DNA from: Stieleria neptunia | GTDB lineage: Bacteria; Planctomycetota; Planctomycetia; Pirellulales; Pirellulaceae | Direction of reading: 5' to 3' | Length of the DNA: 64,000 bases | Assembly: GCF_007754155.1 (NCBI RefSeq) | Contig: NZ_CP037423.1 | Coordinates: forward strand, 3,782,001-3,846,000 | Shown here: piece by piece, positions 10,917 through 36,000 of the stretch | How positions within the stretch are numbered: position 1 is the first letter of the stretch | Layout: each line of letters opens with the position of its first letter | The notes under the pieces: generated by a model | Database searches by the model: none | The model's input: only the letters and a program-made list of their open reading frames with translations | Told to the model about the DNA's origin: nothing | Program-made: the position numbers and the translations under genes

Positions 10917-10993
<77 letters not shown>

Positions 10994-11127: not shown

Positions 11128-12348
11128 ATGCCGCGACAGAATTCGTCGACGCCTACGTATCTCTACCACACGTCCGGACAAGCCCGAGTCTACCTTGACG
11201 GGCGATACTTCTACCTCGGTGAACACGGCTCTCCAGCCAGCTACGCCAAGTTTTACGCCCTGCTGGCCACGTACACGGCAAACGGAAATCGGATGCCCTC
11301 CGATGCCGAGATCGACGTCGCCGACGCACCGATCACTGTGCGTTGCCTCACCGCCGAGTTTCGCGAACACGCGAAAACCAAGTACGCCAACAACAAGACC
11401 CAGCGAGGCCGGTTCAATAACCTCTGTACGCTGCTGGACGATGAATACGCAGACGTCCCGATTGACCAATTCGGACCCCGCAAGCTGGCCGAGATCCGCG
11501 AACTGCTGGTCGCGACGAAAAACAAGCGGGGGCGGAATAACACCCGCAGATACATCAACGAGCAAATCCGATCGATTATCAAGGTGTTTCGATTCGGCGT
11601 CTCCCGTGAAGTCGTGGACCCTAGCATCGTTGTCGCCCTGGATACTCTCGAACCACTGGCATACGGTCAGACCAAGGCCCGTGAATCTGACCCAGTGACA
11701 CCCGTCGACATTGAATCGGTTCGACTGACAGCGAAGTTCCTCTCGCCCCAAATTAAGGCGATGGTGAGGATCCAGGCAGCAACAGGGATGCGCCCGAGCG
11801 AAGTTTGTGTCATGCGGCCGATTGACATTGAGAAGCGTCCGGACGGCGTTTGGGTCTATCGGCCGGCCAAGCACAAGACCGCCCACCGCGGGAAGAAAAA
11901 AGAGGTGCCGTTGGTGGGTGATGCCAAGCGGGCGCTGAAACCATTCCTCAACCGCCCCGATGAGGAGTTTTTCTTCAAACCCGTCGAAGCGTCCGAGTGG
12001 CACCTGCAGCAACGGCGGGAAAATCGCAAAACCCCGATGAATCAGGGAGATCGGCCGGGATACAGTAAGTCCAGCCGAAGCGGAACACGGAAGCCCCGTG
12101 AATACCAAGAGCGGTACAACAAGGATTCCTACCGCCGGGCAATCGAGCGAGCGGCGAAACAGGCCCAGACGGATCACTGGCACCCCTACCAGCTGCGTCA
12201 CACTGCGGCGTCCGTCATTCGGGAGGCACTCGGTATTGAAGCAGCCCAGGCAATGCTGGGGCACTCCCGCGCGGCGATGACCGAACATTACGCGAAACAG
12301 TCACTCGATCGAGCGATCGAGGCCGCCAAGGTTGCTCCGAAAATCTGA
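11128..12348 (+). CDS. int: Tyrosine recombinase / phage-type integrase
   Basis: 406-residue site-specific recombinase, predicted to insert and excise the surrounding element at tRNA-Val. The N-terminal 90 residues form an arm-binding-like region (TYLYHTSGQARVYLDGRYFYL) and the SAM-like core domain follows. The catalytic domain shows Arg I in TGMRPSEVCVM (about residue 221), a Lys in the following beta hairpin, HxxR in HPYQLRHTAAS (about 352), His in LGHSRAAMT (about 377) and the nucleophile Tyr in EHYAKQS (about 387). The start has an excellent GAGGAGG ribosome-binding site. It lies 137 bp from the intact tRNA, the usual attL-side position. Confidence 0.95.
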   Translation: MPRQNSSTPTYLYHTSGQARVYLDGRYFYLGEHGSPASYAKFYALLATYTANGNRMPSDAEIDVADAPITVRCLTAEFREHAKTKYANNKTQRGRFNNLCTLLDDEYADVPIDQFGPRKLAEIRELLVATKNKRGRNNTRRYINEQIRSIIKVFRFGVSREVVDPSIVVALDTLEPLAYGQTKARESDPVTPVDIESVRLTAKFLSPQIKAMVRIQAATGMRPSEVCVMRPIDIEKRPDGVWVYRPAKHKTAHRGKKKEVPLVGDAKRALKPFLNRPDEEFFFKPVEASEWHLQQRRENRKTPMNQGDRPGYSKSSRSGTRKPREYQERYNKDSYRRAIERAAKQAQTDHWHPYQLRHTAASVIREALGIEAAQAMLGHSRAAMTEHYAKQSLDRAIEAAKVAPKI

Positions 12349-14057: not shown

Positions 14058-14381
14058 ATGGAGATTGCTAGAAAAATCATCCAGATTGTCCCCGGCGACT
14101 GGGATGTCATTTGGTTCTGCCGGACGCAAAAAGAAATCTACAAGACCAAAGCGATGTTCTGCGCCGCGGTCAAGGAATACGAGATCAAGCGGGACACCAG
14201 CGGCCGCGTATGCGATCGGCAGTACCTATGGGACAGCGTGATACCGATCGATCCCAGTGACATCGGCATCGGTGGAATCGTTGACAGTGACGAGTACATC
14301 GGCATCGTCCCCGCCGGGGTTGACCCGCGAGATCCGCAATACGCCCTAGAGTTTCCCATGGAAGCGAGGGATGCGGCATGA
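14058..14381 (+). CDS. Hypothetical protein (107 aa)
   Basis: Starts 4 bp after the winged-helix gene and overlaps the primase gene by ATGA, so it is part of the same transcript. The sequence (IIQIVPGDWDVIWFCRTQKEIY ... IPIDPSDIGIGGIVDSDEYIGIV) is acidic, soluble and not recognised. Position suggests a replication accessory role; sequence alone does not show it. Confidence 0.6.
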   Translation: MEIARKIIQIVPGDWDVIWFCRTQKEIYKTKAMFCAAVKEYEIKRDTSGRVCDRQYLWDSVIPIDPSDIGIGGIVDSDEYIGIVPAGVDPRDPQYALEFPMEARDAA

Positions 14382-15469
14382 ACGGACCAGGCGAGACGGC
14401 GGCATGGTTGGATGCCCTTTACAGCCGATGCACTCCCGACGATGGCGAACTCGTTTTCGTCGATTCAACCAAACGCAAAACCGTGGGAATGGCGAAAGCC
14501 GGCGATCCCGACGAACTGGTCAAGGCAGCCAACGCGATGAATGGCCGGCTCGATCAGTATTTGAAAATCAACCCGATGGACGGTGACGCGATCCGGGCGA
14601 GAGCGGAACGCGATGGCAAGGGACGCTACATAGTCGGTTCTGCAAACGAAGTCAAAACGATCGTCTCGTTCCACCTGGACTGTGACGCCGGGAAATCATC
14701 GAAGTATCACACCCGCGAAACGATGCTCCGATTGCTCGACAAGATGCCTCGCAAGCCGTCGCTGATTGTCAACAGTGACGGTCCCGAGGGCGGGTTTCAT
14801 TGTTACTGGATTCTTGCAAATCCGTTTCGCATCAAATCAGACGATGATCGCGAATACATCAAGCGTCTGACGAAGCGTTGGCAGGACAAGCTAAACAGTT
14901 TGGCCGGCGGAAAACTTGACTCAACGGCCAACATCGACCGCGTGTTGCGAGTGGTTGGGCAAGGTCGCAGCAACGGCAACGCGGTGACGTGTCACGAGTA
15001 TCACCCTGAGCGGTTGTATTCGTTGCGTGAATTGTCGCTCCCTGCAAGTCAAAGCGAAATCAAAACGTCTGCCACAAAGTTTGCTCGGCAAGTGATCCGC
15101 GAAACACTCGGCAAGTGTGACACATCAGACCAGCCGATCACCGCGTACATCGACGCGAGCAATTTAACCGTCGAAGACCTGTTGGCACAAAATGGATACC
15201 AACAGCTACGCGGTGACGAATGGATTCGCGAGGGCAGCGTCAGCGGTGCCAGAACGTTGAAGATTGCCACCGAGGCGGATCGGCCGGGGATCAATGTGTT
15301 TTCGGGGAACGAAACGCGGTTCCCTTGCCTCAAGGATGACGGCAGTGTCGGCCGGTTCTATTCGATTGACCAGATGTTTGTGACTCTCCGTCACGGTGGC
15401 GACTGGAAGGCCGCCGCGCGTTGGTGTCACGAACAAATCGAAAGCCAATCAGGGAGGGGGCCAGCGTGA
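14378..15469 (+). CDS. RepB/AEP-type primase-polymerase-like replication protein
   Basis: Probable archaeo-eukaryotic-type primase that starts replication of the element. FHLDCDAGKSS (about residue 101) supplies the metal-binding DxD, SLIVNSDGPEGGFHCYWIL the conserved S-DG-GFHxYW strand with its nucleotide-contacting His, and DSTANIDRVLRVVGQGRSNG (about 190) the D-x5-RVLRxxG signature of plasmid and phage RepB-like primases. The C-terminal ~130 residues are a separate domain, possibly for helicase or DNA contact. The gene overlaps its upstream neighbour (ATGA) and the helicase downstream (GTGA). Length (363 aa) suits a stand-alone primase rather than a primase-helicase fusion. Confidence 0.8.
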   Translation: MNGPGETAAWLDALYSRCTPDDGELVFVDSTKRKTVGMAKAGDPDELVKAANAMNGRLDQYLKINPMDGDAIRARAERDGKGRYIVGSANEVKTIVSFHLDCDAGKSSKYHTRETMLRLLDKMPRKPSLIVNSDGPEGGFHCYWILANPFRIKSDDDREYIKRLTKRWQDKLNSLAGGKLDSTANIDRVLRVVGQGRSNGNAVTCHEYHPERLYSLRELSLPASQSEIKTSATKFARQVIRETLGKCDTSDQPITAYIDASNLTVEDLLAQNGYQQLRGDEWIREGSVSGARTLKIATEADRPGINVFSGNETRFPCLKDDGSVGRFYSIDQMFVTLRHGGDWKAAARWCHEQIESQSGRGPA

Positions 15470-16800
15470 ACGAATACACCGATGAAGCGATTGAACAGTT
15501 TCAACGCAAGTATGACCAGGCCGTCGAAGAGGCGAGCCGAAAGACGGCCGCGGTCAAGCTACTGGCACGAGAGGCCAAGCGTCGGCAAATTGATCTTGGC
15601 ACCATCCCTGCCGGCGATCTTCCCGAGGTCAAAACCGATAAGGGTCTGACCATCAAGGTCGAATCAGTTGCGTTTGACGGGAACCATTCGGGCACAGTGC
15701 GGGATGAATCAGGCGAGTCGATGCCGTTTGGTTGGATCGTCACCAGTGACGACGATCGAAGCCGGTTCATTAAGAGCGTGGTTGCCAAGTGGCCTGATGA
15801 AACACCGGAATCGATCGAGGCAGTGATCGATGTTTTTTCCAGCCGATGGGAAACCCTTCAAGCGTCTCGTGACACAGACGATTCTGAAAAGCCGTTGACG
15901 CGGTGCGGTATCGAGATCCTTCACGAATTGCTTGACGATCTGCACGACGGTCGCGGCGATGTTCTCTATACGCTCGGCAACGCCCTTGAAGGATTCGAGA
16001 TCGGACCCGGATTGATCGCCGCACTCGGAGCTGGGCCGGGGGTCGGTAAGACCGCGTTGGCCGGCCAAGTCACCTTTGAAGTGTTGCAGCACAATACCGG
16101 CGTCCAGGTTTACATCGCAAACGCTGAGTCGACGTTCAAGGCGTTGTTGAAGCGCGAGTTGGCCGGACGAACAAGTGTTCCGCCCAAGGCGTTGCGATTC
16201 GCTGACCTGACCGCCGGCCAACTTGCTGAGGTTGACTTCGCCGCGGCAGAGATCGCGGAACACGTTGGTGCCGATCGGTTGAACGTGATGCCAATTGAGC
16301 TTTGCACGATGGAAGGTCTGGGGCGTCTGATGCGAGAACGCGAGCCGGGATTTTTGATCGTCGACTACATCCAGAAATTCGCCCCTTACGGAAAGGACAT
16401 TCGGCAAGGTGTCAACGAGGTCATGACGCTGCTGCGTGTGATGGCCAGCAAGGGCTGGGGCATCCTCGCGTTGTCGGCCACGTCGCGCACCACGGGGAAG
16501 TCATCCAGCGGGCACGACACCTCCAAACTGACGCTGGCGAGCTTCAAGGAATCGGGCGAGATCGAATTTAACGTAGACAGTGCGTATCTGTTGCGTGATT
16601 GCGGTGAAGTCGAACCAGGCGTGCGAGGTGTTCGCAACATCGCCCTTGATTGCGTCAAGAACCGTCACGGCGATCAGATTCGAAAGGAACTCGTTTTTGA
16701 CATGCCGCGAATGCGATTCGGAACGCCTGACCCGATGCCCCATGACTTTGGGGAGTACGGGGGAAATCTCGGCGACCAGCCTTGGAAGGCGAAAGGATGA
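15466..16800 (+). CDS. DnaB/RecA-fold replicative helicase-like ATPase
   Basis: Hexameric-helicase-type ATPase. GPGLIAALGAGPGVGKTAL contains Walker A GAGPGVGKT at about residue 188; FLIVDYIQKFAP (about 295) is the DnaB-type Walker B (DYIQ); LALSATSRT and the ESGEIEFNVDSAYLLR segment match the DnaB/RadA sensor regions; KNRHGDQI is the KxRxG motif near the C-terminus of DnaB enzymes. The N-terminal ~150 residues are not a classical DnaB N-domain. I start at GTG 15466, which overlaps the primase stop (GTGA) and follows AGGGAGGGGG; the longer frame from 15421 lacks a ribosome-binding site. It presumably acts with the primase. Confidence 0.86.
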   Translation: MNEYTDEAIEQFQRKYDQAVEEASRKTAAVKLLAREAKRRQIDLGTIPAGDLPEVKTDKGLTIKVESVAFDGNHSGTVRDESGESMPFGWIVTSDDDRSRFIKSVVAKWPDETPESIEAVIDVFSSRWETLQASRDTDDSEKPLTRCGIEILHELLDDLHDGRGDVLYTLGNALEGFEIGPGLIAALGAGPGVGKTALAGQVTFEVLQHNTGVQVYIANAESTFKALLKRELAGRTSVPPKALRFADLTAGQLAEVDFAAAEIAEHVGADRLNVMPIELCTMEGLGRLMREREPGFLIVDYIQKFAPYGKDIRQGVNEVMTLLRVMASKGWGILALSATSRTTGKSSSGHDTSKLTLASFKESGEIEFNVDSAYLLRDCGEVEPGVRGVRNIALDCVKNRHGDQIRKELVFDMPRMRFGTPDPMPHDFGEYGGNLGDQPWKAKG

Positions 16801-17354
16801 CTCAAAAACAGAAATCAAATTTACGATGGGAGTCGGGCCGGCACATTCATGACATCGTGCTGCCGTCCCTGGATTCGACCGCACAGGCCGCGGTGCTAAT
16901 GTTCTGCTGGTTTCACGCCCGCGGGCGTGACTGCGTTTTCGATGCGACTGCCCAGCAAATCGGGGACGCACTGAGTATGTCGCAGCGTCACGCGAAACGG
17001 GTTCTCTGTGAACTTGAGACGGGCGGCGTGGTCAAGACGCTGACCAGTGGTCGGGGACGGGGCAACCCATCAACGCGATACATCACAGGCCAGCCATTGA
17101 AGATCACAAAAGGGGACTCCCATGTCACCCTTTCCGATCAAAAAGGGGACACAGGCGTCACCCTTCCAAAAACAAAAGGGGACAAACGGCGCACGAAAAG
17201 GGGACAAATGGCGCACGAAAAGGGGACACCCATGTCACCCACACAGAACAGAACAGAAGCGGCGTCGCTTTCGCTTCGCGACGACACCACTTCTGGCACA
17301 CCAAAAGACGAACGCCCCCGCCGCGTTGCAACACCTGACGCTGCTGCTGGATGA
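16797..17354 (+). CDS. Winged-helix replication/regulatory protein with iteron-encoded tail
   Basis: Residues 1-100 form a helix-turn-helix domain: LPSLDSTAQAAVLMFCWFHARG, FDATAQQIGDALSMSQRHAKRVLCEL, then a GGVVKTLTSGRGRGNPSTRY wing. This resembles the winged helix of plasmid and phage replication initiators. ATG 16797 overlaps the helicase stop. The C-terminal ~85 residues are low-complexity and rich in Lys, Thr and Gly, because the DNA there is an array of AAAAGGGGAC repeats in changing reading frames. The tail is probably a by-product of a cis-acting site inside the gene. Together with primase and helicase this forms a replication operon. Confidence 0.7.
   Translation: MTQKQKSNLRWESGRHIHDIVLPSLDSTAQAAVLMFCWFHARGRDCVFDATAQQIGDALSMSQRHAKRVLCELETGGVVKTLTSGRGRGNPSTRYITGQPLKITKGDSHVTLSDQKGDTGVTLPKTKGDKRRTKRGQMAHEKGTPMSPTQNRTEAASLSLRDDTTSGTPKDERPRRVATPDAAAG
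17108..17227 (+). repeat. Iteron-like array: five AAAAGGGGAC copies at 33, 33, 22, 22 bp
   Basis: Exact AAAAGGGGAC begins at 17108, 17141, 17174, 17196 and 17218. The last two units are a near-perfect 22-bp repeat (GGCGCACGAAAAGGGGACAA). All spacings are multiples of 11 bp, so the copies face the same side of the helix. Because 22 is not a multiple of 3, the copies fall in different codon frames; the DNA is conserved, not the protein. It is a probable Rep-binding site or origin. Confidence 0.75.
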
Positions 17355-20145: not shown

Positions 20146-22599
20146 ATGACCAGCAGCCAAAACATTGACGCGGGCGGGGCGAGTTTTGCGTTATCGCTGA
20201 AAGACGACCTGACCCGTGATCTACAATCTTCGCTGTCCAACGCCGTCAAAGCGGTGCGGGGCGTGGTCGGGGAGATCGATCGAGAGATCAAGGCCCTAGG
20301 TCGGACCATCACGGACACCGGGAAGCAAATCGCCAAGATCGGAGCCGGCGCGAGTGCGTTGGGTGCTGGCGTGACTTTCGGTTTTGCTCGTGCGACCATT
20401 GCCGCCGGCGACTTTGCCGAAACGCTTTCGATGTTTGACGCAGTGTTTAAGGATCAATCCGAATCTGTCCGGCGATGGGGCGAGAACTACGCAAAAACCG
20501 TTGGCCGATCACGGGGGCAACTGTTGCAGTTCTTGGCAGACGCCCAAGACACGTTTGTTCCGCTGGGATTCGACCGCAAAGAGGCCACCGAGCTTTCCAA
20601 AACCGTCGCGAAGCTGGCGATCGACTTGGGAAGTTTCAAGAACATCGACGACGCCGACGCACTGCGTAGTCTGTTGGGCGGCATCATCGGGAACACCGAA
20701 AACCTGCGCCGGTTTGGAGTGGTCGCACAAGAGGCTCAAATCAAGGCCCAGGCGTTATCGATGGGTTTCGACCCGTCAAACCTCACAGCGTATCAAAAGG
20801 CGTTGGCCATCTTGGAACTGACGCTAGCGGGCACCCAGGACGCACAGGGCGATGCGATCAAGACCGCCGGCAGTTTCGCTAACAGCGTGCGAGCACTCAA
20901 AGCCGCATTCGGTGACCTGAAAAACGCGATTGGCCAACCGCTCTTGGAAATCGGCACGTCGTTCGTCCAAGGCATGGCGGCGGTTATCCAGTCGATCAAC
21001 ATGGTGCTCGAAAAGTTTCCCCTGCTGACGAAGTTTGCCGCGGGGACGGCGTTGGCCGTTGGTGCTGTCGGTGCAGCGGCGACCGGGTTGGGCGTGGCGT
21101 TGGCAACGATGGGGACGTCCCTGGCGACGTCTGGGGCGTTGCTGCTGGTCTGGACGGTGCGAGCCCAGGGTTTAACCGCAACGATGGGGAAGATGGCAGT
21201 AGCGGCCAAGACCGCCGGCCCAGCGATCGCAGCGGCAACGGCAGAGGCCGGCAAAGGAGCTGCGGCGATGGCTGCGGGTGAATCGGGGGCTATGTCGTTC
21301 GGTGCTGCGTTGCGAGCCGTGGGAATGCGTATCGCCTACGTTGCGGAGGCGATCGTGCTGGCGTTTCGGTCGAACATCTTCAAGGCCGCAATGGGCGGCA
21401 TCATTCGCGGTCTGAAGAACATCATTTCCGTTGCCCGGTTCGCGGGATCTGCCATCATCGGCATCGCCAAGACTGGCCTGGCTGCGGTTGCGCGTCTGCT
21501 GGTTTCGCCAATCGGTCTGATTGCGGGTGCAACCGCCGCGGCGATGAAGGGTCTGGAACTGTACTACCGTCGTGCCGAACAACTGGCGAACAAACGCGGG
21601 AAGCAACTGGACATTGAGCGGGTTAAGTTGGTGCGTCAGTCGTTCATCGATGCCGGCCAAACGCCACCCCATGACCTGTTCAAAACCTTTAATCCCAACG
21701 GTGCCCGTGTCGTCAAGAATCCGGCCCCCGAGCTTGCCGCACTGACCGCAGCCCAGCGTGGTCTGGTCGATGAGATCAACGCGATGCGTTCCCCGCTGGA
21801 AACCTTCCGCGATCGGATCAAGGCGGCAAGCGAATTGCTCAACCGTGGCGAGATCAGCAAAGATCAATTCAATGCGTTTTCTCGCCAAGAGTTTGATCGG
21901 TTCCAACAATCCGACCCGGCGACCCAGGCACGCAACAGTCTTGCCGATCAACTGCGAACGCCTGCGGAAACGCTCCGCAAATCGGTTGCCGATGCTCGCA
22001 GGTTGTTTGCCGACGATGCACAGATGATGCGTCGCGCGGTCCAGGCCGCTGTCGATACGTTCAAGGCGACCGATCCGGCGGAGCAAATGAAACAGCAACT
22101 TATGACGCCCGTTGAGCGGATGCGGCAATCCATCGCCAACGCTCACAAGTTGTTCGCAGGCCAACCGGAGTTTCTTCGCCGCGCGATTGCCGCGTCCGTG
22201 AAAGAGTTTAAGGCAAGCCAACCAACCGCCGCTGACGACCCAGGCATTAAAGCTGCTGAGGGGATCAGGGACGCACTGAAAACCGATGCCCAGCAAGTCG
22301 CCGAGAAGATGGCCGAAGGCGTTAGGTTGGTGCAATCTGGCCACCTGACGAAAGCAGAGGCCCAGGCGTTCAACCGTCAATTGCGTGACGACTTTTTGGG
22401 TGACAATCCCGGCAAGCCAAGTTTCCAGCAGATGGCGGCCCAGAGTGCTCACGTAGCCGCAAACATCGGCAAGTTCGCCCCGAGTTTCGACAACACGTCA
22501 TCGGAAGAAAAAGCCTACAGGCGGAAGACAATCGAACTGCAACAGGAGATGCGAAAGGAACTCAGGGACATTCGACGACGACGCCCCGCGTTTATCTGA
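20146..22599 (+). CDS. Phage tail tape-measure-like protein (817 aa)
   Basis: Resembles tape-measure proteins, which set tail length and pass into the host envelope. The N-terminal coiled-coil (residues 10-70: LKDDLTRDLQSSLSNAVKAV) leads into a TP901-type core (FGFARATIAAGDFAETLSMFDAVF...). A hydrophobic Gly/Ala-rich block at about residues 285-420 contains several membrane-compatible helices. The C-terminal third has about four ~45-residue tandem repeats built on TPxExxRxSxxxAxxLF and a terminal coiled coil. It is short for a long-tailed phage. No baseplate, tube or sheath gene is nearby. The stop overlaps the next start. Confidence 0.75.
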   Translation: MTSSQNIDAGGASFALSLKDDLTRDLQSSLSNAVKAVRGVVGEIDREIKALGRTITDTGKQIAKIGAGASALGAGVTFGFARATIAAGDFAETLSMFDAVFKDQSESVRRWGENYAKTVGRSRGQLLQFLADAQDTFVPLGFDRKEATELSKTVAKLAIDLGSFKNIDDADALRSLLGGIIGNTENLRRFGVVAQEAQIKAQALSMGFDPSNLTAYQKALAILELTLAGTQDAQGDAIKTAGSFANSVRALKAAFGDLKNAIGQPLLEIGTSFVQGMAAVIQSINMVLEKFPLLTKFAAGTALAVGAVGAAATGLGVALATMGTSLATSGALLLVWTVRAQGLTATMGKMAVAAKTAGPAIAAATAEAGKGAAAMAAGESGAMSFGAALRAVGMRIAYVAEAIVLAFRSNIFKAAMGGIIRGLKNIISVARFAGSAIIGIAKTGLAAVARLLVSPIGLIAGATAAAMKGLELYYRRAEQLANKRGKQLDIERVKLVRQSFIDAGQTPPHDLFKTFNPNGARVVKNPAPELAALTAAQRGLVDEINAMRSPLETFRDRIKAASELLNRGEISKDQFNAFSRQEFDRFQQSDPATQARNSLADQLRTPAETLRKSVADARRLFADDAQMMRRAVQAAVDTFKATDPAEQMKQQLMTPVERMRQSIANAHKLFAGQPEFLRRAIAASVKEFKASQPTAADDPGIKAAEGIRDALKTDAQQVAEKMAEGVRLVQSGHLTKAEAQAFNRQLRDDFLGDNPGKPSFQQMAAQSAHVAANIGKFAPSFDNTSSEEKAYRRKTIELQQEMRKELRDIRRRRPAFI

Positions 22600-23033
22600 T
22601 GGATCAGTTTAGAACTCGGGCGGAGCTTGATCGAATCCGCGTCAAGCATCGGCTACCGCACTCCACTCTCGGCGAAATGCAAGCCGAAGTGTCGGCGTTT
22701 GTCTCCGTCGGCATGGACGTTGACGAAGCGTGTCAACTGGTTGGATTGCCCCGCCGGCTGTATCGGATCGATGCCGCCGGCAATGAGCGGATCACGCATC
22801 TACCGACGCCGGCGGAGATCGAAGCGTTGACAATTCGCATCCGTGCGGGCGAGCGAATCTGTACCCGCCGAAGTCAAGAACGGTGGTTGAAGTACAACGA
22901 AATGATCGAAGCAGGCGACCCGGATTGCGAATCGTTCGACCTGGCCGGCCAGATCGCCGAGGATGCGTGCCCCCTCCCGCCCTGGCTCTATTCCGCCGAT
23001 GAAGAAAAAGAAACGCGATCGCGTGGTCGATGA
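22599..23033 (+). CDS. Hypothetical protein (144 aa) coupled to the tape-measure gene
   Basis: The ATG begins at the last base of the tape-measure stop codon (TGATGG), so the two are translationally coupled. The sequence is acidic and soluble, with EVSAFVSVGMDVDEACQLVGLPRRLYRI (possibly a helix-turn-helix-like segment) and ICTRRSQERWLKYNEMIEAGD. The latter resembles the helper segment of transposase/terminase-type HTH proteins only loosely. Family not recognised. Confidence 0.6.
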   Translation: MDQFRTRAELDRIRVKHRLPHSTLGEMQAEVSAFVSVGMDVDEACQLVGLPRRLYRIDAAGNERITHLPTPAEIEALTIRIRAGERICTRRSQERWLKYNEMIEAGDPDCESFDLAGQIAEDACPLPPWLYSADEEKETRSRGR

Positions 23034-23208
23034 TTCAAACCACCTTTTGACGCTGGCCGAAGTTGCCAGAATCGCAAACGTCAAACGCGATGACGTTGAC
23101 CGATGGATTGAGACGGGAGCGTTGAAGTCGGTCCCGATGCCGGGCTCCACTCGGCGACGTGTGAGGCGGCGAACGTTGAATGCGTTTCTGGCCGAGTTGC
23201 GGGAGTGA
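22999..23208 (+). CDS. Excisionase/MerR-type HTH protein (69 aa)
   Basis: A basic start (MKKKKRDRVVDD) then a classic HTH_17/Xis fold: LLTLAEVARIANVKRDDVDRWIETGALKSV, PMPGSTRRRVRRRTLNAFLAEL. I chose ATG 22999, which overlaps the upstream gene by 35 bp; a start at 22963 adds noise. As a recombination directionality factor candidate it would oppose the integrase, although it lies at the far side of the element. The non-coding palindrome and array region begins right after its stop. Confidence 0.68.
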   Translation: MKKKKRDRVVDDSNHLLTLAEVARIANVKRDDVDRWIETGALKSVPMPGSTRRRVRRRTLNAFLAELRE

Positions 23209-23300
23209 AATGCTCCGCCCCCGGATCCGGTGTCGGTCGATCGAGCGGCAACGGCAGCCGCACAATCATGCGGCCGGTGATGACCAGAGCCGCCGGTGAT

Positions 23301-23320
23301 TGCGTCCCTGCAGGGACGCA
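23301..23320. repeat. Perfect 20-bp palindrome
   Basis: TGCGTCCCTGCAGGGACGCA reads identically on both strands. It is the first of three perfect palindromes in 130 bp leading into the CRISPR-like repeats. Confidence 0.85.
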
Positions 23321-23343
23321 GGAAACCGCGTCATCGGACGTTG

Positions 23344-23373
23344 CCGACTAGAATTGACGTCAATTCTAGTCGG
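23344..23373. repeat. Perfect 30-bp palindrome 5 bp before the first CRISPR-like repeat
   Basis: Centre GAATTGACGTCAATTC, extended symmetrically to CCGACTA...TAGTCGG. Its length makes cruciform extrusion or a dimeric protein site likely. There is no T-run, so a terminator is unlikely. Confidence 0.85.
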
Positions 23374-23378
23374 ATAGT

Positions 23379-23559
23379 GAGCAGCTATCCGGCGATCCCA
23401 ACGCCCACTGCAACGTTCGGAATTCCGAACATTTCCGATCGCGTCAGCCGAGAGCAGCTATCCGGCGATCCCAACGCCCACTGCAACCGACAGTCAGCAA
23501 AGAATCAAGCGACCTTCGCCATAGAGCAGCTATCCGGCGATCCCAACGCCCACTGCAAC
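23379..23559 (+). CRISPR. CRISPR-like mini-array: three 36-bp repeats, two spacers, no cas genes
   Basis: Three identical 36-bp repeats at 23379-23414, 23452-23487 and 23524-23559. They start GAGCAGCTATCC and end CCCACTGCAAC. Spacers are 37 nt (23415-23451) and 36 nt (23488-23523) and unrelated to each other. The repeat can fold: GGCG/CGCC inner stem and GCAG/CTGC outer stem. On the other strand it would start GTTGCAGTGGGCG, which is CRISPR-like in style. Against it: only two spacers, no cas gene in the window, and spacer 1 starts with a perfect 16-bp palindrome. Iteron-type protein sites are the alternative. Confidence 0.55.
23415..23430. repeat. Perfect 16-bp palindrome at the start of spacer 1
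   Basis: GTTCGGAATTCCGAAC is fully self-complementary and abuts the first 36-bp repeat. A palindrome is unexpected in a randomly acquired spacer. Confidence 0.8.
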
Positions 23560-23729
23560 AGCCCCATCGGCAGCCCCCGCAAAACACGGGGCGAAAATGA
23601 CCGTTTGCGAGCGGTCCCCGATTCCATGTTGAAAAACTTTCGTTGTCGCTGTTGACTCCGGCTTTAGGTCCCGGCAAACTCTGGTCTCTGTCTGGCTGTT
23701 TTGCGGGCTTGAACACTTAGCAAAACTTC

Positions 23730-23753
23730 TGATCGGTTCGTTTCACCCGATCA
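23730..23753. repeat. 7-bp inverted repeat
   Basis: TGATCGG-TTCGTTTCAC-CCGATCA between the array and the long stem-loop. Possible operator or small hairpin; no further support. Confidence 0.35.
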
Positions 23754-23792
23754 GCGACCCGGCCTCCACACGATTCTTAGGCAAATGAAAAT

Positions 23793-23935
23793 GGAAAAGT
23801 CGCTCAATACGTCGGTGTTATCCAAGCGTTGATCCTGCACAGGCAGGGGAGCAAAGTTTCATCGGGCGGCCAAGTGGTAACACTTGGTAGGGACGTGTGC
23901 CCTTTCGCTGTTCAAGCGTGTTGAGCGACTTTTCC
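23793..23935 (+). ncRNA. Candidate structured RNA closed by a 15-bp perfect inverted repeat
   Basis: GGAAAAGTCGCTCAA (23793-23807) is the exact complement of TTGAGCGACTTTTCC (23921-23935). The stem extends inward through U-G, A-U, C-G, G-C and U-G pairs to about 20 bp. Inside lies a second perfect hairpin, CCAAGTG-GTAA-CACTTGG (23870-23887). No open frame occupies the interval, and the next gene starts 40 bp downstream. It could be a non-coding RNA, a 5'-leader regulator of the 192-aa HTH gene, or a DNA cruciform. Confidence 0.45.
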
Positions 23936-23975
23936 GTGCGCGCATCGAATCGGTGCGCAAGGGGGATTTCATCCC

Positions 23976-24554
23976 ATGGCTTACATCTCTTTCTCTGAGG
24001 CCGCACGTCGCGCCGGCGTTTACGTTCATGGCGTTCACAAGTTGGCCGATGCGGGCATCATCCAGCGACACACCGTCAAAGGGCATCGCTTCCCGATGCT
24101 GAATGACCGCGACGTCGCGACGATCAAGGAACACTTGCCGGCCAGATACCTCCCGCCGGTTCGCGTTGCGATCGGAAACACGTTCACCGATCCGACACCT
24201 GCGGAGATTCGCGACCGGTGTGAAATGATCCTGGCGAATCGAAAAAAGGTCAGCCCGCATGAGCGTTGCCGACAGCGAATCTTGTGGATCCTGAGCCACC
24301 AAGGCGGTCTGACGATAGATCTCGTTGCGACCGCACTGGGGGCCAGCACAGTCACCGCATCGGCAAGGCTGAAAGAACTGGAAGCGGTTGGGTTGGTTGA
24401 ATCGATCGGCATCACGCATCGCCGCTACTTCTGCGCCGAAAGCGTCGGCAAGTTTGCGGCAATGGATACCGCCGACACCATCTTGGCCCGTTTTCGCACT
24501 CGAGCGGAACGCTATGCCCGTCGATCGAGAAGACCGCGACAGGCCGCCGCCTAA
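23976..24554 (+). CDS. Two-domain HTH regulator (192 aa)
   Basis: The N-terminus has an excisionase-like HTH (ISFSEAARRAGVYVHGVHKLADAGII, then KGHRFPMLNDRDVATI). The middle has a winged helix (RILWILSHQGGLTIDLVATALGASTVTASARLKELEAVGLVE, wing ITHRRYF). The C-terminus is Arg-rich. Two DNA-binding modules in one protein suggest a master regulator of the element. It follows the palindrome, array and stem-loop region and may control or bind it. Start ATG 23976 comes after a weak ribosome-binding site (AAGGGGG). Confidence 0.7.
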   Translation: MAYISFSEAARRAGVYVHGVHKLADAGIIQRHTVKGHRFPMLNDRDVATIKEHLPARYLPPVRVAIGNTFTDPTPAEIRDRCEMILANRKKVSPHERCRQRILWILSHQGGLTIDLVATALGASTVTASARLKELEAVGLVESIGITHRRYFCAESVGKFAAMDTADTILARFRTRAERYARRSRRPRQAAA

Positions 24555-26299: not shown

Positions 26300-26344
26300 T
26301 TGACATCGTAGAGGTCACAGATTCGAATTCTGTATCGCCCACTC
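26300..26344 (+). other. attR: second 45-bp copy of the tRNA-Val 3' end
   Basis: Identical to 10949-10993. The sequence upstream (TTTGAGATTT) is not tRNA-like, so this copy is not a functional tRNA. It is followed by the terminator that probably belonged to the original tRNA locus. Confidence 0.95.
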
Positions 26345-27635: not shown

Positions 27636-28120
27636 AGCCCCATGTGCTTGGAGAGATTAGAGAAGAGAAGCGGATTGGATCCTATCTCGGTCGCGTCTGC
27701 CCGCAACCCCAACTGAGAGTGCTCTGTCCCCGCTGTCCAACTGTCCCCGCTGTCCCTGTCCCAACTGAGAGTGCTCTGTCTCCGCTGTCCCCGCTGTACA
27801 ACGCGATCTCGCTGTGCTGCATTGGCGCTTGCCGCTTGGGCAACCCTGGGTGCCACGCCGGCCCGTGATCGGTGGGTCCCGAATGAATGCCTGAGCGCAT
27901 GAACGTGAGCAACGCATCCGTCCGCGTCGGTCTTGTCGATCCCGGCGCCGATTAGGTCGCGGTTCATAATCCGCAGGATGCCAGCCGGCACATTGAATAC
28001 GATTTCGGATCGGTCGCGGCCGTTGATCCATTCACGCGGGTCGGCGACAAGGTTGCTACGCAATGCACGGGTTGACAATGCAATGGTTGAACCCTTGCGG
28101 CTTATCTCCTTGCAGTGACG
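27632..28120 (-). pseudogene. Tyrosine recombinase relic (C-terminal catalytic fragment)
   Basis: On the reverse strand, EIVFNVPAGILRIMNRDLIGAGIDK followed by VHALRHSFGTHRSRAGVAPRVAQAA is the catalytic HxLRHSFGT region of the large planctomycete integrase family. Arg I and the Tyr nucleophile region are missing or scrambled, and the frame runs into unrelated repeat sequence. It is a remnant of an earlier integration next to the present attR. Confidence 0.65.
27716..27802. repeat. Tandem-like repeat with CAACTGAGAGTGCTCTGTC units
   Basis: CAACTGAGAGTGCTCTGTC followed by CCGCTGTCC-type repeats occurs twice (from about 27715 and 27760). Further CCCCGCTGT copies lie between them. The tract interrupts the integrase relic. 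Confidence 0.6.
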
Positions 28121-28460: not shown

Positions 28461-29084
28461 TTGAAGAACGCTACAAATTGGGACTTCCTGGTCCAACGTG
28501 CGGGGCGTGGGGATACCGAAGCGATCGCCCAAGTTTTCGAAGCGAACCGCGAGCGTCTTCAGAATTACGTGCATCAACTTCTCGATTCGCGAGTCAAGAT
28601 TCGAGTGGGCGCGTCGGATGTCATCCAAGAAGTATTCTTGGACGTGCAGCTTCAGATCCAAGGGTTTCTTGCTCATCCTCGAGTTCCCCTGTCTGTGTGG
28701 CTGCGTGGAATTGCCGCGCAGCGAGTCATCAAAACCAACCGTGCCCATATCTTTACCGCTTGCCGTTCGCTGATTCGAGAGCATCGCCAATCCGAACGGT
28801 CGTCCGATCTCCAAACGCATCAATTGGTCTCGGATGATTCGTCTCCCAGCCAACAAATCGCTAAGCGTGAATCGCACATTCAAGTGCATCAGGCCTTGGA
28901 CCAGCTCAAGCCGTCTGATCGCGAGATCATCGTTGCGAGGCAATTCGACGGACGCAGCAACCGTGATCTGGCAAAATCGCTTGGGATCAGCGAGACAGCT
29001 GCCGCGATGCGTTATGTCCGAGCACTCGGCCGATTTCAACGACTCGTTCGAGGATCGCTCACGACCTCCGGGCTCGGCCAATGA
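28461..29084 (+). CDS. ECF-type RNA polymerase sigma factor
   Basis: 207-residue sigma-70 family protein of the extracytoplasmic-function class. Region 2 is recognised by ASDVIQEVFLDVQLQIQGF (promoter melting), region 4 by LDQLKPSDREIIVARQFDGRSNRDLAKSLGISETAAAMRYVRAL with its HTH. Start is TTG 28461 preceded by GGGAG. The stop overlaps the start of the kinase-WD40 gene (ATGA), so the two are translationally coupled. The pairing of an ECF sigma factor with a Ser/Thr kinase is known in planctomycetes: the kinase is thought to control the sigma factor. Confidence 0.9.
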   Translation: MKNATNWDFLVQRAGRGDTEAIAQVFEANRERLQNYVHQLLDSRVKIRVGASDVIQEVFLDVQLQIQGFLAHPRVPLSVWLRGIAAQRVIKTNRAHIFTACRSLIREHRQSERSSDLQTHQLVSDDSSPSQQIAKRESHIQVHQALDQLKPSDREIIVARQFDGRSNRDLAKSLGISETAAAMRYVRALGRFQRLVRGSLTTSGLGQ

Positions 29085-32000
29085 GCGATGTCCGTGGGTT
29101 GTCCGCTCTTGAGGACGATTCGTCAGGATCGGCAGACTCTGACGACGAACTCACCCGCATCCTTGCAGACATCGCAGAGGATTATCACGCTCGTGCTGAA
29201 ACAGAAAGTGACTTTGACGTCGCAAGTCATTTGATCGCTCACCCTGAACACGCCGAAGCGATTCTGGAAATGGTTGCCACGCTTGAGTTTTTCGGACAGT
29301 GTGATTCGCCGAGCGCACCGGATCGAGCGACGGCACTGTCAGCCGGCCAGCAATTGGACGACTTTCGGATTGTTCGAGAAATCGGCCGGGGCGGCATGGG
29401 GATCGTCTATGAAGCGCAGCAGGTTTCGCTCCGGCGACGCGTCGCATTAAAGATTTTGCTTTTGCCTCTGCTCTCGACCGACCTGCAACGACAGAGATTT
29501 GCTAACGAAGCGTTCATTGCAGCGCAATTGCGTCACCCGAATATCGTGTCGGTCATCTCCATCGGTTGTGAAGGGAACATTCACTATTACGCGATGGAAT
29601 ACATCGGCGGCCCATCGCTGGCAGATATCATCCGACAGGGAAGTCCGTCTCGAAAACGACTTGCAACAAACTCGGAACCCGACACCGATGAAACGGAGGA
29701 TCTCGATCGGTCAAAACCGCTTGCCAATTCGTCCCACCTGACTTGGATTCCTGAGCATGGACCGGACAGTCGACGATGGGGTGCCAGCGTCGCTTTGACT
29801 GTCGCGAGGGCGTTGCAATACGCACACGACAGCGGCGTTCTCCATCGCGACATCAAACCATCCAATCTGCTCTTTGACGAGCAAGGCAAAGTGCACTTAA
29901 CCGATTTTGGGCTGGCGCAACACACACACCAATCGGCATTGACGCGTACCGGAGACATCGTCGGGACGCTGCGATACATCAGTCCGGAACAGGCTTCAGG
30001 AAATCGAAAACCGATTGACGCGCGATCCGACATCTATTCGCTCGGGCTGACGCTCTACGAGATCGCTGCCGGTCGCCCTGCTTTTCCGGAGACCTCACCG
30101 GCACAATTGCTGGCACAAGTATTCCATGACGAACCGCTTCCGTTACGACACGTTGACGCGAGTATTCCCGTCGATCTCGAGACGATCGTTCTCCGAGCGA
30201 CCGCAAAAGATCCGGCGGATCGCTACGAGTCAGCAGAAAGCTTGGCGAATGATTTGGAACGATTTCTCAATCGCCAGCCGATCAACGCCAAACGGCTGAG
30301 TTTCCAAGAGGTTGCCGCCCGTTGGTTCTGGAGACATCGCAGGCGATTGCTGTTCGCCTCGTTCTATGGACTGCTGCTCATCGTCGTTTTGGGGTGCAGC
30401 ACGATTGCCATTTTCCTATCTCAGCTCGCTACGAAGCGAGCGTTGGTCACAGCAGAGGCAAACGCGATGCATGCCCAGGAGGCTGTTCGCCAATACCAAA
30501 TCAGTCATCGCCGGACCACACAGTTGCTCTATGTGGCCAACATGCATGCGGCCGGCCAAGCCGAAAGGGTCGGTGACCTTTCGCGTCTCTCCGAAATCCT
30601 CCATTTACATCAACAAGTCGAGACCGACCATTGCGTACACGGCTTTGAATACGATCTACTTTGTGAACGCACCAAGACCGCGTCAAAAGAACTTTGGACC
30701 ACAGAGGGTGCGTTGTATAGTGTTTGTGTCTCTCCTGATGGCAACAAAATTGCGTTTGCTGGACAAGACGCCAACGTCAGAGTGCTTGATCTGTCCAGCG
30801 GCGATTTGGTCTGCCAGTTCCCCACCGAACAAGGCGAAGTCAATCAAGTTGTGTTTGATCAAACAGGCACAAGGCTTGCCACGACGGGCGACACCGGAAC
30901 GGTCTGTCTCTGGGATTCACAAACCGGTCAGAAACGACGGCGGATCTCCGCTCACGATGGCCAAAGCTACGGGGTGGCGTGGGTGCCAAATGACCGTGGC
31001 GTCATCTCTTGTGGAGCGGATCGGCAGATCAAGGTCTGGCCGATCTCAGGGAACTCGACTGCGGAAAACGTTCTTGGCAGCCACCGCAGGTCCGTCGAAG
31101 CGATCAGTCTGTCCGATGACGGACGTTGGCTGGTTTCGGCGGGATCTGATCATGTCGCTAGTGTATGGGATACGACATCGAAACGTTGCATCCAAGCAAT
31201 CGTGCCCGGAAACGCGTCGGTCAATTGTGTTGCCTCGTCTGATGAAGGAATGGTTGTACTGGGCACCAAAGCAGGCATCGTGGCGGCATTCCATTTGGAC
31301 GATCCGACGCAATTCTGGTGCGCCGCCCATTTCGACAGCATCTCAAGCGTCGGGTTTGCGTCCGACGGACGAACCGTCATTGCCGGCGATCACGGAGGTG
31401 TCCTACGTGTCTGGGAACCGATGGATTCGGGACAGCTACGATCGGGCACGACGACAGCGTCTCCGCTCCCGATCGCCATGGTCCGTCCCGATTCGGTCCA
31501 GCTGACGACGAAAGACGATCTTGCAGATCAACTGCAAAAAGGGGGCGTCGCAGGTTTGCAAAGAGAGACCGATACTCAATTCGTACGCACCCATGCGATG
31601 CGACAGATCGCCAGTTGGGAAGCGCATCTGGGCCGAGTCTACTCGGTTCAGTCGATCGGCAACGGCGCAGCGGTTTCTACCGGTCAAGACGGTCGACTGG
31701 TCCGCTGGAGGTTCGGACAAGAGACAATGCAATCGGTCTCTGGACCCGCCGAGCAGCCCATTCGGAGATTTGCCATGGGGGATGATGGACGGATCATGAC
31801 CGTCCATCAAAATAGCACCACGATTGGCGAGGTCGCCGATGGCTCGCTCGTCGACATCCTCACGAGCGATTTGAATTCGATCACCGCCGTCCAGACGTCG
31901 CCGTCCCATCAATGGCTGGCCGTCGGCGGCCCGGGCCCGGCGATCGAAATCTGGGACCTTGCGTCCTCCACTCGCACCTGTCGCATCGATGTATCCGGCA

Positions 32001-32653
32001 AAGGTTTTGTCAGCAAGATTGTATTTTCACCGGATGAGCGATTGATCGCGGTGGTTGGCATGAGAACCAAAAACTCTGTGCCAGGACACGAGGGTGTGAT
32101 CCGCGTCTACGACGTCCACAGCGGCAAGCGACGTTTCGCCATGGCCGCGGCGGATTGCCAGGCGATGGCGTTTCAACCAAACACGGAACCGCCCACCCTG
32201 GTCTGTCATGATCGACACGACCTTTTGATCTGGCGTCTCGGATCTCAGCCTGACAGGGTCGCGGACGCGCACGACAACGCGATCAGCCAAATCAGGTTTT
32301 CTCGCAACGGCCAGTTATTTGCCACCGCCAGCCACGACCGCTCGGCAGTACTTTGGGACGCCAGGGGCAATCGGTTGGCGACGCTCGTCGGTCACAACGA
32401 TCGGGTGTTCGCAGCTTGTCTTCATCCGAATGGCCGGACGTTGGTCACTGGCAGCGAAGATGGCGAGGTGAGGTTGTGGAATGTCGCAACTGGGCAACCG
32501 TTGTTCGTGTTGAGAAGTTTTTCGAGTCCGATCCGGCAACTTGGCTTCAGCTCCGACGCCCGAAACCTCGCCTGCCTGTTGGACGACGGAACATTGCACC
32601 TGCTCGAGACGGGACTCTCAGCGAATGAAAACGCGGCCGGCGGGCCGAAATGA
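29081..32653 (+). CDS. Membrane-anchored Ser/Thr protein kinase with C-terminal WD40 propeller(s)
   Basis: 1190-residue Hanks-type kinase. Gly loop IGRGGMGIVYEA at about residue 103, catalytic Lys in VALKILLLP (123), HRDIKPSNLLF (255), LTDFGLA (274) and the APE-like SPEQASG. One membrane helix (LLFASFYGLLLIVVLGCSTIAIFL) lies at about 420-445. From about 540 to the end are at least ten WD40 repeats such as GALYSVCVSPDGNKIAFAG and SHDRSAVLWDARG, enough for one or two beta propellers outside the cytoplasm. The insert at about 190-230 in the kinase N-lobe is unusual. Coupled to the upstream sigma factor, it probably senses an external ligand and regulates it. Confidence 0.92.
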   Translation: MSDVRGLSALEDDSSGSADSDDELTRILADIAEDYHARAETESDFDVASHLIAHPEHAEAILEMVATLEFFGQCDSPSAPDRATALSAGQQLDDFRIVREIGRGGMGIVYEAQQVSLRRRVALKILLLPLLSTDLQRQRFANEAFIAAQLRHPNIVSVISIGCEGNIHYYAMEYIGGPSLADIIRQGSPSRKRLATNSEPDTDETEDLDRSKPLANSSHLTWIPEHGPDSRRWGASVALTVARALQYAHDSGVLHRDIKPSNLLFDEQGKVHLTDFGLAQHTHQSALTRTGDIVGTLRYISPEQASGNRKPIDARSDIYSLGLTLYEIAAGRPAFPETSPAQLLAQVFHDEPLPLRHVDASIPVDLETIVLRATAKDPADRYESAESLANDLERFLNRQPINAKRLSFQEVAARWFWRHRRRLLFASFYGLLLIVVLGCSTIAIFLSQLATKRALVTAEANAMHAQEAVRQYQISHRRTTQLLYVANMHAAGQAERVGDLSRLSEILHLHQQVETDHCVHGFEYDLLCERTKTASKELWTTEGALYSVCVSPDGNKIAFAGQDANVRVLDLSSGDLVCQFPTEQGEVNQVVFDQTGTRLATTGDTGTVCLWDSQTGQKRRRISAHDGQSYGVAWVPNDRGVISCGADRQIKVWPISGNSTAENVLGSHRRSVEAISLSDDGRWLVSAGSDHVASVWDTTSKRCIQAIVPGNASVNCVASSDEGMVVLGTKAGIVAAFHLDDPTQFWCAAHFDSISSVGFASDGRTVIAGDHGGVLRVWEPMDSGQLRSGTTTASPLPIAMVRPDSVQLTTKDDLADQLQKGGVAGLQRETDTQFVRTHAMRQIASWEAHLGRVYSVQSIGNGAAVSTGQDGRLVRWRFGQETMQSVSGPAEQPIRRFAMGDDGRIMTVHQNSTTIGEVADGSLVDILTSDLNSITAVQTSPSHQWLAVGGPGPAIEIWDLASSTRTCRIDVSGKGFVSKIVFSPDERLIAVVGMRTKNSVPGHEGVIRVYDVHSGKRRFAMAAADCQAMAFQPNTEPPTLVCHDRHDLLIWRLGSQPDRVADAHDNAISQIRFSRNGQLFATASHDRSAVLWDARGNRLATLVGHNDRVFAACLHPNGRTLVTGSEDGEVRLWNVATGQPLFVLRSFSSPIRQLGFSSDARNLACLLDDGTLHLLETGLSANENAAGGPK

Positions 32654-33060: not shown

Positions 33061-36000
33061 ATGCGGCAGGGATTCTTCGGTAAAAACGGGGCAGGCGTCG
33101 GACGAACAAATAAAAGGCGCGAGCAGCGGAGACAACGCGCTCAACGACGGAGAATGTTGCTCGAACCCCTGGAAAGCCGCCGGTTGCTCGCCACCATCTT
33201 CAGCGACAACTTCGAATCCGGTTCCCTGAGCAGCTCAAAATGGTCGGTGAGGGATGCGCGCGTCGATTGGGACAAAGGAACTTCAGGTCCCAAGATGTTT
33301 GTCAGTTCCTGTAATCTCCCGAACTGCAGTCAAGTGTTGGGCACGTATGCGGCGGAACTCGATGGTGTCAGAGAAGAGTTGCGGTCCAAAACGATCAACT
33401 TGCAAAACTACGTTTCGGCGTCGTTGAGCTATTATGTCCAGGCCGGTGGGAATGAGAATGCGCCAGAAACGGTAGACGACCTTTACGTCCAGTATCGTAA
33501 GTCAAATGGCGGATGGGCAACGCTGGCTAGCCACGATGTATCCGCGTTTGAGCCAAGCTTCCCCTCTTTTGATCAAGACGGTTTTCTCTCCAGAAGCGTA
33601 AATTTACCTGCGGGGGCATTTCACTCCAATTTTGCTTTCCGTTTCAATGCCTATGCGTCTGATTCCGGGGGGGCTTTTGGGACGACCGGCTTTGACGACT
33701 GGTTCATTGATGTAGTCGCTCTCACTGGAACTCTCAATTCGCCACCATCGATCGCATTGACGGGGACCAACGGGACAGTGTTGGACAATGAAACTCACTC
33801 GTTCACCTACACGCCATCGGATCCAGACAACAATCTGTCCAGCGTCTCTGCTGTGGTAAAACGTGGAAACACCACCGTTTCCTCGTCCACTAGCACAACG
33901 ACGACAACGCTTTCTCCGAGTAACAATGCCGGGCTCGGCAAATATGAAATCACGGTCGTTGCCACCGATGCGAAAAACCAGTCTGTCACGGCGACCCGTT
34001 CGTATACCTTGGACGACGACGACAAGAGCGCTCCCTTGATTTCTTTGGGCGGCTCGTCCGGCTTGGAGAACCACACTCAGCCACAAGCCTTTTCTTGGTC
34101 CGCAACGGACCAGGATTCTGGAATCGATTCTTCCAGTGTCGTCATTTCCCACAACGGAGCAACGATTCACACGTCCAATTCCGCGTCGGGAAATTTCAAC
34201 TTCGACGCGTACGGCATCGGGACGTTCACGATCTCGATGACGGCGACCGATGACGACAATGATCGTACGAATGACTCGCTGAGCAGTAGCGCCAGCCAAA
34301 CGGTGACCGTGACCAATGTTTTACCGGAGGCAGACGCCGGCTTTAATCGTGTCGCAGTGGAGGGAATACCGATTGCCTTTGATGGCTCAGGCTCGACGGA
34401 CTCCGATGGCGACGCACTGACCTACTCCTGGGATTTCGATGACGGCAACGTCGGTTCAGGTCCCCAACCTTTGCACGTCTTCGAGGACAACGGCACTTAC
34501 ACGGTCTCACTGACCGTGGACGACGGATATGGCGGTTCGCATACGGACACGATGACCGTCACCGTCTCGAACGCCGCTCCTCAAATACTCTCGATTAGCA
34601 ACCCGGGCTTTGTCGATCCTGGCAACTCCGCTGAAATCATCGTCAATGCCGTCGACACGCTGCTCGACACTCTGAGCTACGAGTTTGATTTCGACAACGA
34701 CGGTGCATTTGAAATCACCAACGACTTGGGTGCCGCGTCACATACCTTCGCCGATCCGGGAGTCTATCCGGTCAATGTTCGGGTCTTGGACGAAGACGGA
34801 GGATCCGCCACCGGCTGGACGACAGTGCAAGTCGGCGCGGGCGCGACGATCATCCCCACCATCAACTTTGACAGCGTCGATCAATCCGTTTCCGAGGACG
34901 CCGGCCAGCTCACCCTCTCCGCGACTCTGGACACGCCAACGGACGCGGATGTCGTGGTGCCACTGGTGTTGTCAGGCAGCGCGGCGGCGGGTAGCGATTA
35001 TTCGTTCCCCTACACGTATTTGTACATTCCATCAGGACAATCCCAGCAAACGACGACGTTCGACATTAGCAACGACGCGATCAATGAAGCGATGGAAGAG
35101 CTGATCATTTCGATGGGCACGCCGCTGAACGCCAACTTGGGGACAGAAATCGTTCATACCGTGGAGATCTCTGATAATGATCCACTACCACAGGTCGCGT
35201 TCGCTAGCTCCGGACAGGTTGCCTCCGAAGACGGAGGCGAGATCATTGTTTCGGTGCGGCTTTTGCAGCCCTCCGGGCGTGACGTTTCCGTACCAGTGGA
35301 ATTCGCCGGAAAAGCAGAATCTCCCGACGATTTTCAGGTCAGCGGGCCGACAACACTCGTCATCCCCGCCGGCCAACTCAACGCGACGACAACCATCAGT
35401 GTGATCGACGACGCAACGGCCGAAAACAACGAAACGATCGTCGTGACGATGGGGCCACTGATCAACGCAGACGCCGTCACGGATGCTAGCCAGCCGTCAG
35501 TGCATGTGGTGACGATTCCTCGCAATGATGCTCCATCGGTCAATCTCGAGCCCGTCTTTCAGTTGGTCGACGAGTCCGCCGCGACGGTTTCGGTGATCGC
35601 TCGGTTGTCTGGTCCGTCTCCAAATCCCGTGACTGTCCCTTTCACCATTTCTGGCTCCGCCGTCCTCGGAGCCGATTTCAGTGTTGATCCATCTACTGAA
35701 ATCGTCTTCCAGCCTGGCGAGACGGTCGCGGCCATCGACATTCCAATCGTGGATGATTTGACTGCCGAGGACACGGAGACCGTCCGCGTTCAGTTGGATG
35801 CCCCGACGGGTGCCACGCTGGGGACAACGGCCGCACACCTCGTCCGGATCGAGGACAACGATACGCCGCGAGTGTCATTCAACCGCACGGCCAATTCGCA
35901 GTACGAAGACGAGGGCAAAGTTGCGATCGAAGTCTTTCTATCGAATCCCCTGGATCATGAAATCGCGGTCCCAATTGAAATCTTCGGTGGAACCGCCAGC

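Follow-up and report, generated by a model that had tools for sequence, protein, structure and literature searches.

A CRISPR-like array with no cas gene found beside it on an integrated element of Stieleria neptunia, and its palindrome-rich homologue in S. mannarensis

How can an array with the shape of CRISPR come to lie on a mobile element that seems to bring no cas gene with it? The question is raised by a 64,000-nucleotide stretch of the Stieleria neptunia Enr13 genome, hereafter called the window, in which three exact copies of a 36-bp repeat, GAGCAGCTATCCGGCGATCCCAACGCCCACTGCAAC, are evenly spaced with a period of 72-73. Exact repeat search places the copies at 23379-23414 (copy 1), 23452-23487 (copy 2) and 23524-23559 (copy 3); between them lie spacer 1 of 37 nt (23415-23451) and spacer 2 of 36 nt (23488-23523), all array features being given here without strand. 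Copy 3 and spacer 2 are proximal, and copy 1 is distal, to a conserved leader-like flank at 23579-23616. The original prediction, made from the sequence alone, saw textbook CRISPR geometry in these repeats and spacers, and this part stands: the copies are exact, and 100 dinucleotide shuffles of the window never produced the repeat pattern. It had also held that the repeat can fold, which is correct to a moderate degree as RNA, with z of -1.95 on the + strand and -0.66 on the - strand. Palindromes are found in and ahead of the array. Spacer 1 starts with a perfect 16-bp palindrome, GTTCGGAATTCCGAAC; a near-perfect one of 22 bp, AACGTTCGGAATTCCGAACATT, lies at 23412-23433 and has its first 3 nt in common with copy 1. 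Spacer 2 is without palindrome. A perfect 30-bp palindrome (23344-23373) lies 5 nt ahead of copy 1; a search of 14 genomes in the genus, allowing up to 3 mismatches, found it nowhere else. A perfect 20-bp palindrome lies at 23301-23320.

The repeat seems to be private to this locus. Allowing up to 3 mismatches, no further copy was found in the whole genome of Enr13 (10,975,817 bases, about 10.98 Mb), nor in the 13 congeneric genomes, nor in a further 395 from the order, some of them of the genus itself, and there was no exact match in a genome-contig collection or in IMG/VR, where near relatives of the window may be missing. Among the searched genomes, no relative with the same repeat was found, and thus the same spacers with clock-like divergence, which the original prediction had named as evidence against itself, were not seen.

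What carries the array? The original prediction placed it on a mobile element, and it indeed sits in an element of 15.4 kb integrated at tRNA-Val(gac) (10917-10991, + strand). The ends of the element are 45-bp att direct repeats, the left of which (10949-10993) begins inside the tRNA gene while the right one lies at 26300-26344. All the genes to be mentioned are on the + strand: a tyrosine integrase (11128-12348, PF00589), a Rep/primase-like protein common to related elements, whose function we read by eye (14378-15469), a DnaB-like helicase (15421-16800), a tape-measure-like protein by our own reading, the best PHROG being 28918 of unknown function (20146-22599), an HTH_17 or excisionase-like protein directly ahead of the array (22963-23208), and a winged-helix (MarR-like) gene (23976-24554) behind a structured RNA. 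The array, about 6.6 kb from the DnaB gene and between two + strand units, occupies an accessory slot of this prophage- or satellite-like element. Some other repeats and genes in the window are worth recording. A winged-helix-like ORF behind the helicase gene contains 33- and 22-bp tandem repeats (17102-17228), candidate replication iterons; just outside the element a 21-bp sequence is directly repeated, 52 bp apart (27708-27780); and further on are a protein kinase of 1190 aa with WD40 repeats (29081-32653) and an ORF of 2829 aa that contains a tandem duplication of 354 bp (33061-41550).

Does the array have a Cas partner? Genome-wide searches covered Cas1, Cas9 and the Cas10 palm, and nine element ORFs were compared with PADLOC. 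The genome has a single Cas1, at 4.89 Mb, whose neighbourhood with cas4, cas7/Csd2 and part of cas8c is of type I-C (cas1c). The Cas10 palm model gave no match, nor did that of Cas9, a model with which no control genome came above the cut-off either, so that its sensitivity is not demonstrated. PADLOC gave no Cas match for the nine ORFs, only a generic winged-helix match for 23976-24554. The statement that there is no cas gene in the 64 kb is therefore upheld for the families and ORFs tested. The host I-C array has about 55 repeats of 32 bp, and in the comparison with arrays elsewhere in the genome, which the original prediction had proposed, this repeat aligns with that of the mini-array no better than shuffles do. 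Borrowing of host Cas proteins, as had been suggested, is thus unsupported, because the only host system detected is type I-C with an unrelated repeat. The possibility that the repeat is a copy of the host repeat is ruled out by the same alignment, and an anti-repeat or tracr-like partner within the element was also rejected, the best match being 15 nt at 14499, no better than in shuffles. Since neither cas genes in cis nor a related repeat beside host cas genes was found, as far as Cas1, Cas9, the Cas10 palm and the nine ORFs tell, the locus is not filed as a working CRISPR-Cas locus, even though its growth is CRISPR-like; of the earlier reading as a whole, the CRISPR-like geometry on a mobile element without detected cas remains, and the use of host Cas is not supported, though a system that acts in trans through an effector outside these families, such as a Cas12-like one, may exist.

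If not from a Cas system at hand, how did the array grow? When the intergenic DNA of the window was searched for in 241 family genomes, a homologous array came to light in S. mannarensis JC639 (contig G006:C112, NZ_JACEHH010000002.1), in the same place in a related element, after a tape measure gene (TMP_3). It has ten 36-bp copies, of which the last five are identical. The repeats of both arrays have the same length of 36 nt and a common 13-nt end, CGCCCACTGCAAC, and the best identity between the window repeat and the JC639 copies is 22/36, while the best-of-ten in shuffles reaches 20 at its 99.9% point. The 38-nt flank, GCAAAACACGGGRCGAAAANNNNCGTTTGCGAGCGGTC, is identical at 33 of 38 positions and lies in both arrays at a distance of 19 nt from the last repeat. 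When up to 3 mismatches are allowed, two of 240 family genomes contain it, once each, at the Enr13 and JC639 arrays; as the search pattern was built from these two arrays, only its absence elsewhere is informative. In JC639 the identity of the copies to the flank-proximal one runs 23, 22, 33, 31, 30, 36, 36, 36, 36 and 36 of 36 (rho 0.87), so that a leader and polar growth are seen there, while the three identical repeats of the window cannot show polarity. The JC639 spacers are of 35-39 nt and mutually unrelated (mean pair identity 0.36, against 0.35 when shuffled), and both arrays combine identical repeats within 23-50 bp with regular unique spacers. This pattern points to insertion at the leader with repeat duplication, because tandem duplication would have copied the spacers too; plain tandem duplication is ruled out by their unrelatedness. 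A protein-coding repeat is also ruled out, as the JC639 spacings of 71-75 are not all multiples of three and the ORFs over the window array look spurious.

Comparison of 19 ORFs of the window element with the 19-kb JC639 stretch (tblastn, E <= 0.01) gave matches for Rep, DnaB and a 190-aa ORF at 16782 only, and thus no dedicated effector is visible, nor do the two elements have an integrase candidate in common. Behind the JC639 integrase there is an ORF (L049, 11248-11808) with an RNRIVH stretch reminiscent of HEPN RNases; its PADLOC match is weak (E 0.034) and it has no Pfam match. More distant arrays were also sought. Pairs of the motif CRCTGCAAC occurred order-wide in 20 of 386 genomes, but a reversed-pattern control was equally common, and they looked real in just G000 (Enr13), G006 (JC639) and one hairpin-bearing unit of G002. 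At L085 8580-8720 (G002) lies a lone unit outside an array, in which the repeat end CACTGCAAC precedes a hairpin similar, by eye, to JC639 spacer 8. Pairs of CACTGCAAC in IMG/VR gave at least 120 matches; among the best 15 of 80 loci by repeat identity, L163, L141 and L109, which were examined as sequence, are coding-like repeats, and the remaining top loci, judged from match rows, were set aside as well.

What, then, do the spacers hold? The original prediction expected them to be records of rivals, and no credible target was found for either: against phages both spacers, and against plasmids spacer 2, gave only partial matches with E of 0.5 or more, one 20-mer from each had no exact match in IMG/VR, and no second copy of note was found inside the window. 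In the JC639 homologue, eight of the nine spacers fold with z of -3.2 or lower, the exception being the flank-adjacent spacer 9 (z -0.68). Ordinary protospacers would not be hairpins like these. Among 53 spacers of the host I-C array the mean z is -0.13 and the minimum -2.27, with a longest perfect arm of 7 in a single spacer, and the longest arm in 15 spacers of an RT-Cas1 array of JC639 is 6. It is to be noted that the evidence for storage of palindromes comes mainly from JC639, because in the window one of two spacers is palindromic and even its fold is unexceptional (z -1.33), while the flank-adjacent spacer 2 has z -0.92; the window array alone would prove little. Spacer length is alike with or without a hairpin (35-39), and thus hairpins were not simply added to finished spacers. 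Both hairpin-less spacers are flank-proximal, two cases that could mean that hairpins come with age. JC639 spacers 1 and 7 at first suggested a strand-specific RNA hairpin, in which G-U pairs would be confined to one strand, but this idea was abandoned, as single mismatches in the hairpins of another element (G012:C5) go both ways, two each. A literature search under the wording "palindromic spacers" with CRISPR found no report, and the wording "self-complementary spacers" did not occur among the papers listed.

These results bear on another explanation, that of an ordinary orphan CRISPR mini-array whose cas genes are in another host or were lost, with spacers that would serve as guides against rivals not yet sampled. 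The geometry, the length of the spacers, the polarity and the leader-like flank are what one would expect of it. The cas-less RliB of Listeria, as PMC3886909 describes it, works with Cas proteins supplied in trans, and a genome table in PMC12254169 gives two CRISPR arrays in Enr13, two in JC639 and one in Mal15; from the two arrays each in Enr13 and JC639, a CRISPR finder may already have counted those discussed here. It is nevertheless doubtful, given eight hairpins in nine JC639 spacers with none as strong among the 53 of the host, the lack of targets in the collections searched, the lack of an exact match to the repeat in genome contigs or IMG/VR, with the reservation made above on near relatives, and host repeats that are unrelated.

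Where could such palindromes come from? The related elements were followed with the help of the structured RNA behind the array (23789-23965, + strand, model R1), which lies upstream of the HTH gene and served as the family anchor. This stretch folds strongly (z -4.8), and in five homologues 22 of 47 aligned pairs have both sides changed in at least one sequence. The model built from these five finds 42 matches, themselves included, in 23 of 240 family genomes. Rfam, searched with window positions 22500-24500, gave none above the gathering score and one match below it. As the RNA precedes HTH, integrase and other genes, even at loci where an array is missing, it is not part of the array. A second copy in the genome of Enr13 (G000:C1:1697187-1697335, L248) has another gene downstream and no strong hairpins in the preceding 1300 bp.

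Hairpins of at least 9 pairs with at most one mismatch number 3 in the slot of the window, 9 in that of JC639 and 9 in that of G012:C5, where 20 shuffles of each gave averages of 0.15, 0.2 and 0.1; by the same criterion the slot of G010:C810 has none. Clusters are not confined to these slots: 400 kb of the Enr13 genome contain 34 perfect palindromes with arms of at least 9, among them two loose clusters of three, each within 500 bp (L261, and L272, which is three near-identical copies), and the 336-kb contig of JC639 contains 40, grouped in the array region alone. Further groups are at L033, from the same search of 241 family genomes with window intergenic DNA, at L163, and in the Mal15 array (L009), where they come from its own repeat. 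Slots anchored by the RNA were surveyed over 1300 bp upstream for hairpins of at least 10 pairs. Of the 42 matches, 12 had no locus for this survey, and 28 of the other 30 loci were taken, L235 being at a contig end and L251, usable and with one hairpin elsewhere in the data, being left out. Five slots have at least three such hairpins, five have one or two, and 18 have none.

The palindromes seem to form a pool. Similar hairpin pairs across elements number 6, against 0-3 in 30 sets of random hairpins. Among these pairs, JC639 spacer 2 differs from hairpins in G001:C49 and in G011:C2 by matched changes on both arms. Another recurrence comparison gave 69 matches against 33 in the control, the 69 being inflated by overlapping JC639 loci. 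The palindrome core TGTGCGCCATGGCGCACA occurs in the cluster of G012:C123, again about 4.7 kb off on the same contig within an open reading frame, and in a loop of the structured RNA of G001:C51, and JC639 spacer 6 contains a near copy of it. Judging from such positions, one of them in a putative gene, the recurrent palindromes are probably mobile. These short palindromes with a common core, in RNA loop, reading frame and intergenic cluster, are at L294 9745-9762, L293 7543-7560 and 12261-12284, and L252, on contigs of two species.

Might the locus rather be a cis-acting element that has nothing to do with CRISPR? Its repeats would bind a protein at 72-bp spacing, about 7 turns, and its palindromes would serve as operators, terminators or insulators where the upstream operon meets the RNA-led one. 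The place between two + strand units suits this explanation, as do repeat-free palindrome clusters in the same slot of G012:C5, G012:C123 and G001:C49, and 23 of 36 palindromes hand-picked from five clusters are self-complementary through the centre, like sites of a dimer. However, an insertion mechanism is needed to explain repeats that are identical while their spacers are unrelated, the palindromes vary in sequence yet keep their symmetry, which binding by one protein alone would not call for, and 18 of the 28 slots are free of such hairpins, so that this is no core function. Within 23200-23980 there is no sigma-70-like promoter (0.4 expected), and one terminator-like site lies on the - strand (0.7 expected). 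On balance we regard this explanation as unlikely.

Integrons collect cassettes, and their attC sites have inverted core boxes around each folded cassette site. An integron-like array, in which hairpin cassettes, each with its own 36-bp site, are collected by the tyrosine recombinase of the element, would agree with the tyrosine integrases encoded by both elements and with the polarity. Here, however, the ends of the repeat do not pair around the hairpin, attC core boxes could not be made out by eye, the genome has no free copies of the repeat elsewhere, and the integrase of the window finds no counterpart in the 19-kb JC639 stretch (tblastn, E <= 0.01), which together make such an origin highly improbable.

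Known systems resemble the array in part. Mini-CRISPR arrays borne by archaeal viruses and by plasmids are likewise short, cas-less and on mobile elements, but have repeats similar to those of host arrays and spacers that match rivals, whereas the present repeat bears no relation to the host array, the searches made found no targets, and the homologue stores palindromes. TIGR-Tas arrays, found in phages, are also CRISPR-like and cas-less; their units are of about 36 nt with two short spacers, in contrast to a period of 72-73 with one spacer of 36-37. Rickettsia palindromic elements and the double-hairpin elements of fungal mitochondria are small palindromic insertion elements, and the present palindromes likewise turn up repeatedly in the loops of RNAs, between genes and within reading frames but lie, in addition, inside CRISPR-like units of near-constant length. 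RliB is the closest cas-less array that we have encountered: according to PMC3886909 it is a conserved locus never beside cas genes, with a hairpin-rich transcript. In RliB, according to that source, hairpins arise by pairing of repeat with spacer, and the spacers have matches in phages, while in the present arrays the hairpins are within the spacers (PMC3886909).

The explanation that we prefer, at a probability of roughly 0.45, is an orphan CRISPR-type array grown at the flank by repeat-duplicating insertions of about 36 nt, mostly palindromes, and probably acting in cis, if at all, rather than through crRNAs of the I-C type. Growth would take place at the conserved flank 23579-23616, where each insertion would copy the flank-proximal 36-bp repeat and take in a length-measured piece of about 36 nt. 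The pieces would mostly be palindromes of 20-30 bp from the pool recurrent in these elements. The integrating enzyme, which is not visible beside the array, may act in trans from a host or helper. The units of Enr13 are then probably not crRNAs for the host type I-C system and, if they act at all, may do so as palindromic or hairpin DNA or RNA between two transcription units. Against this preferred explanation it counts that only two arrays are known, that one spacer of two is palindromic in the window, that the elements have no integrase candidate in common, and that hairpin clusters also occur outside these slots. A bolder version, which we consider quite unlikely, is an adaptation-like system with an integrase not yet recognised, in which mobile palindromes, either hairpin-forming mobile DNA or operators of rivals, are captured by length as a polar memory on phage satellites.

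What does the finding mean? Loci of this sort can pass as CRISPR on geometry alone. The polarity and near-constant spacer length of JC639 make the question of array growth concrete. If growth of the CRISPR kind stores palindromes without cas genes nearby, either unrelated repeats would be served in trans by adaptation enzymes, or loci of CRISPR shape would be built by some other enzyme, and both alternatives can be tested in two cultured type strains.
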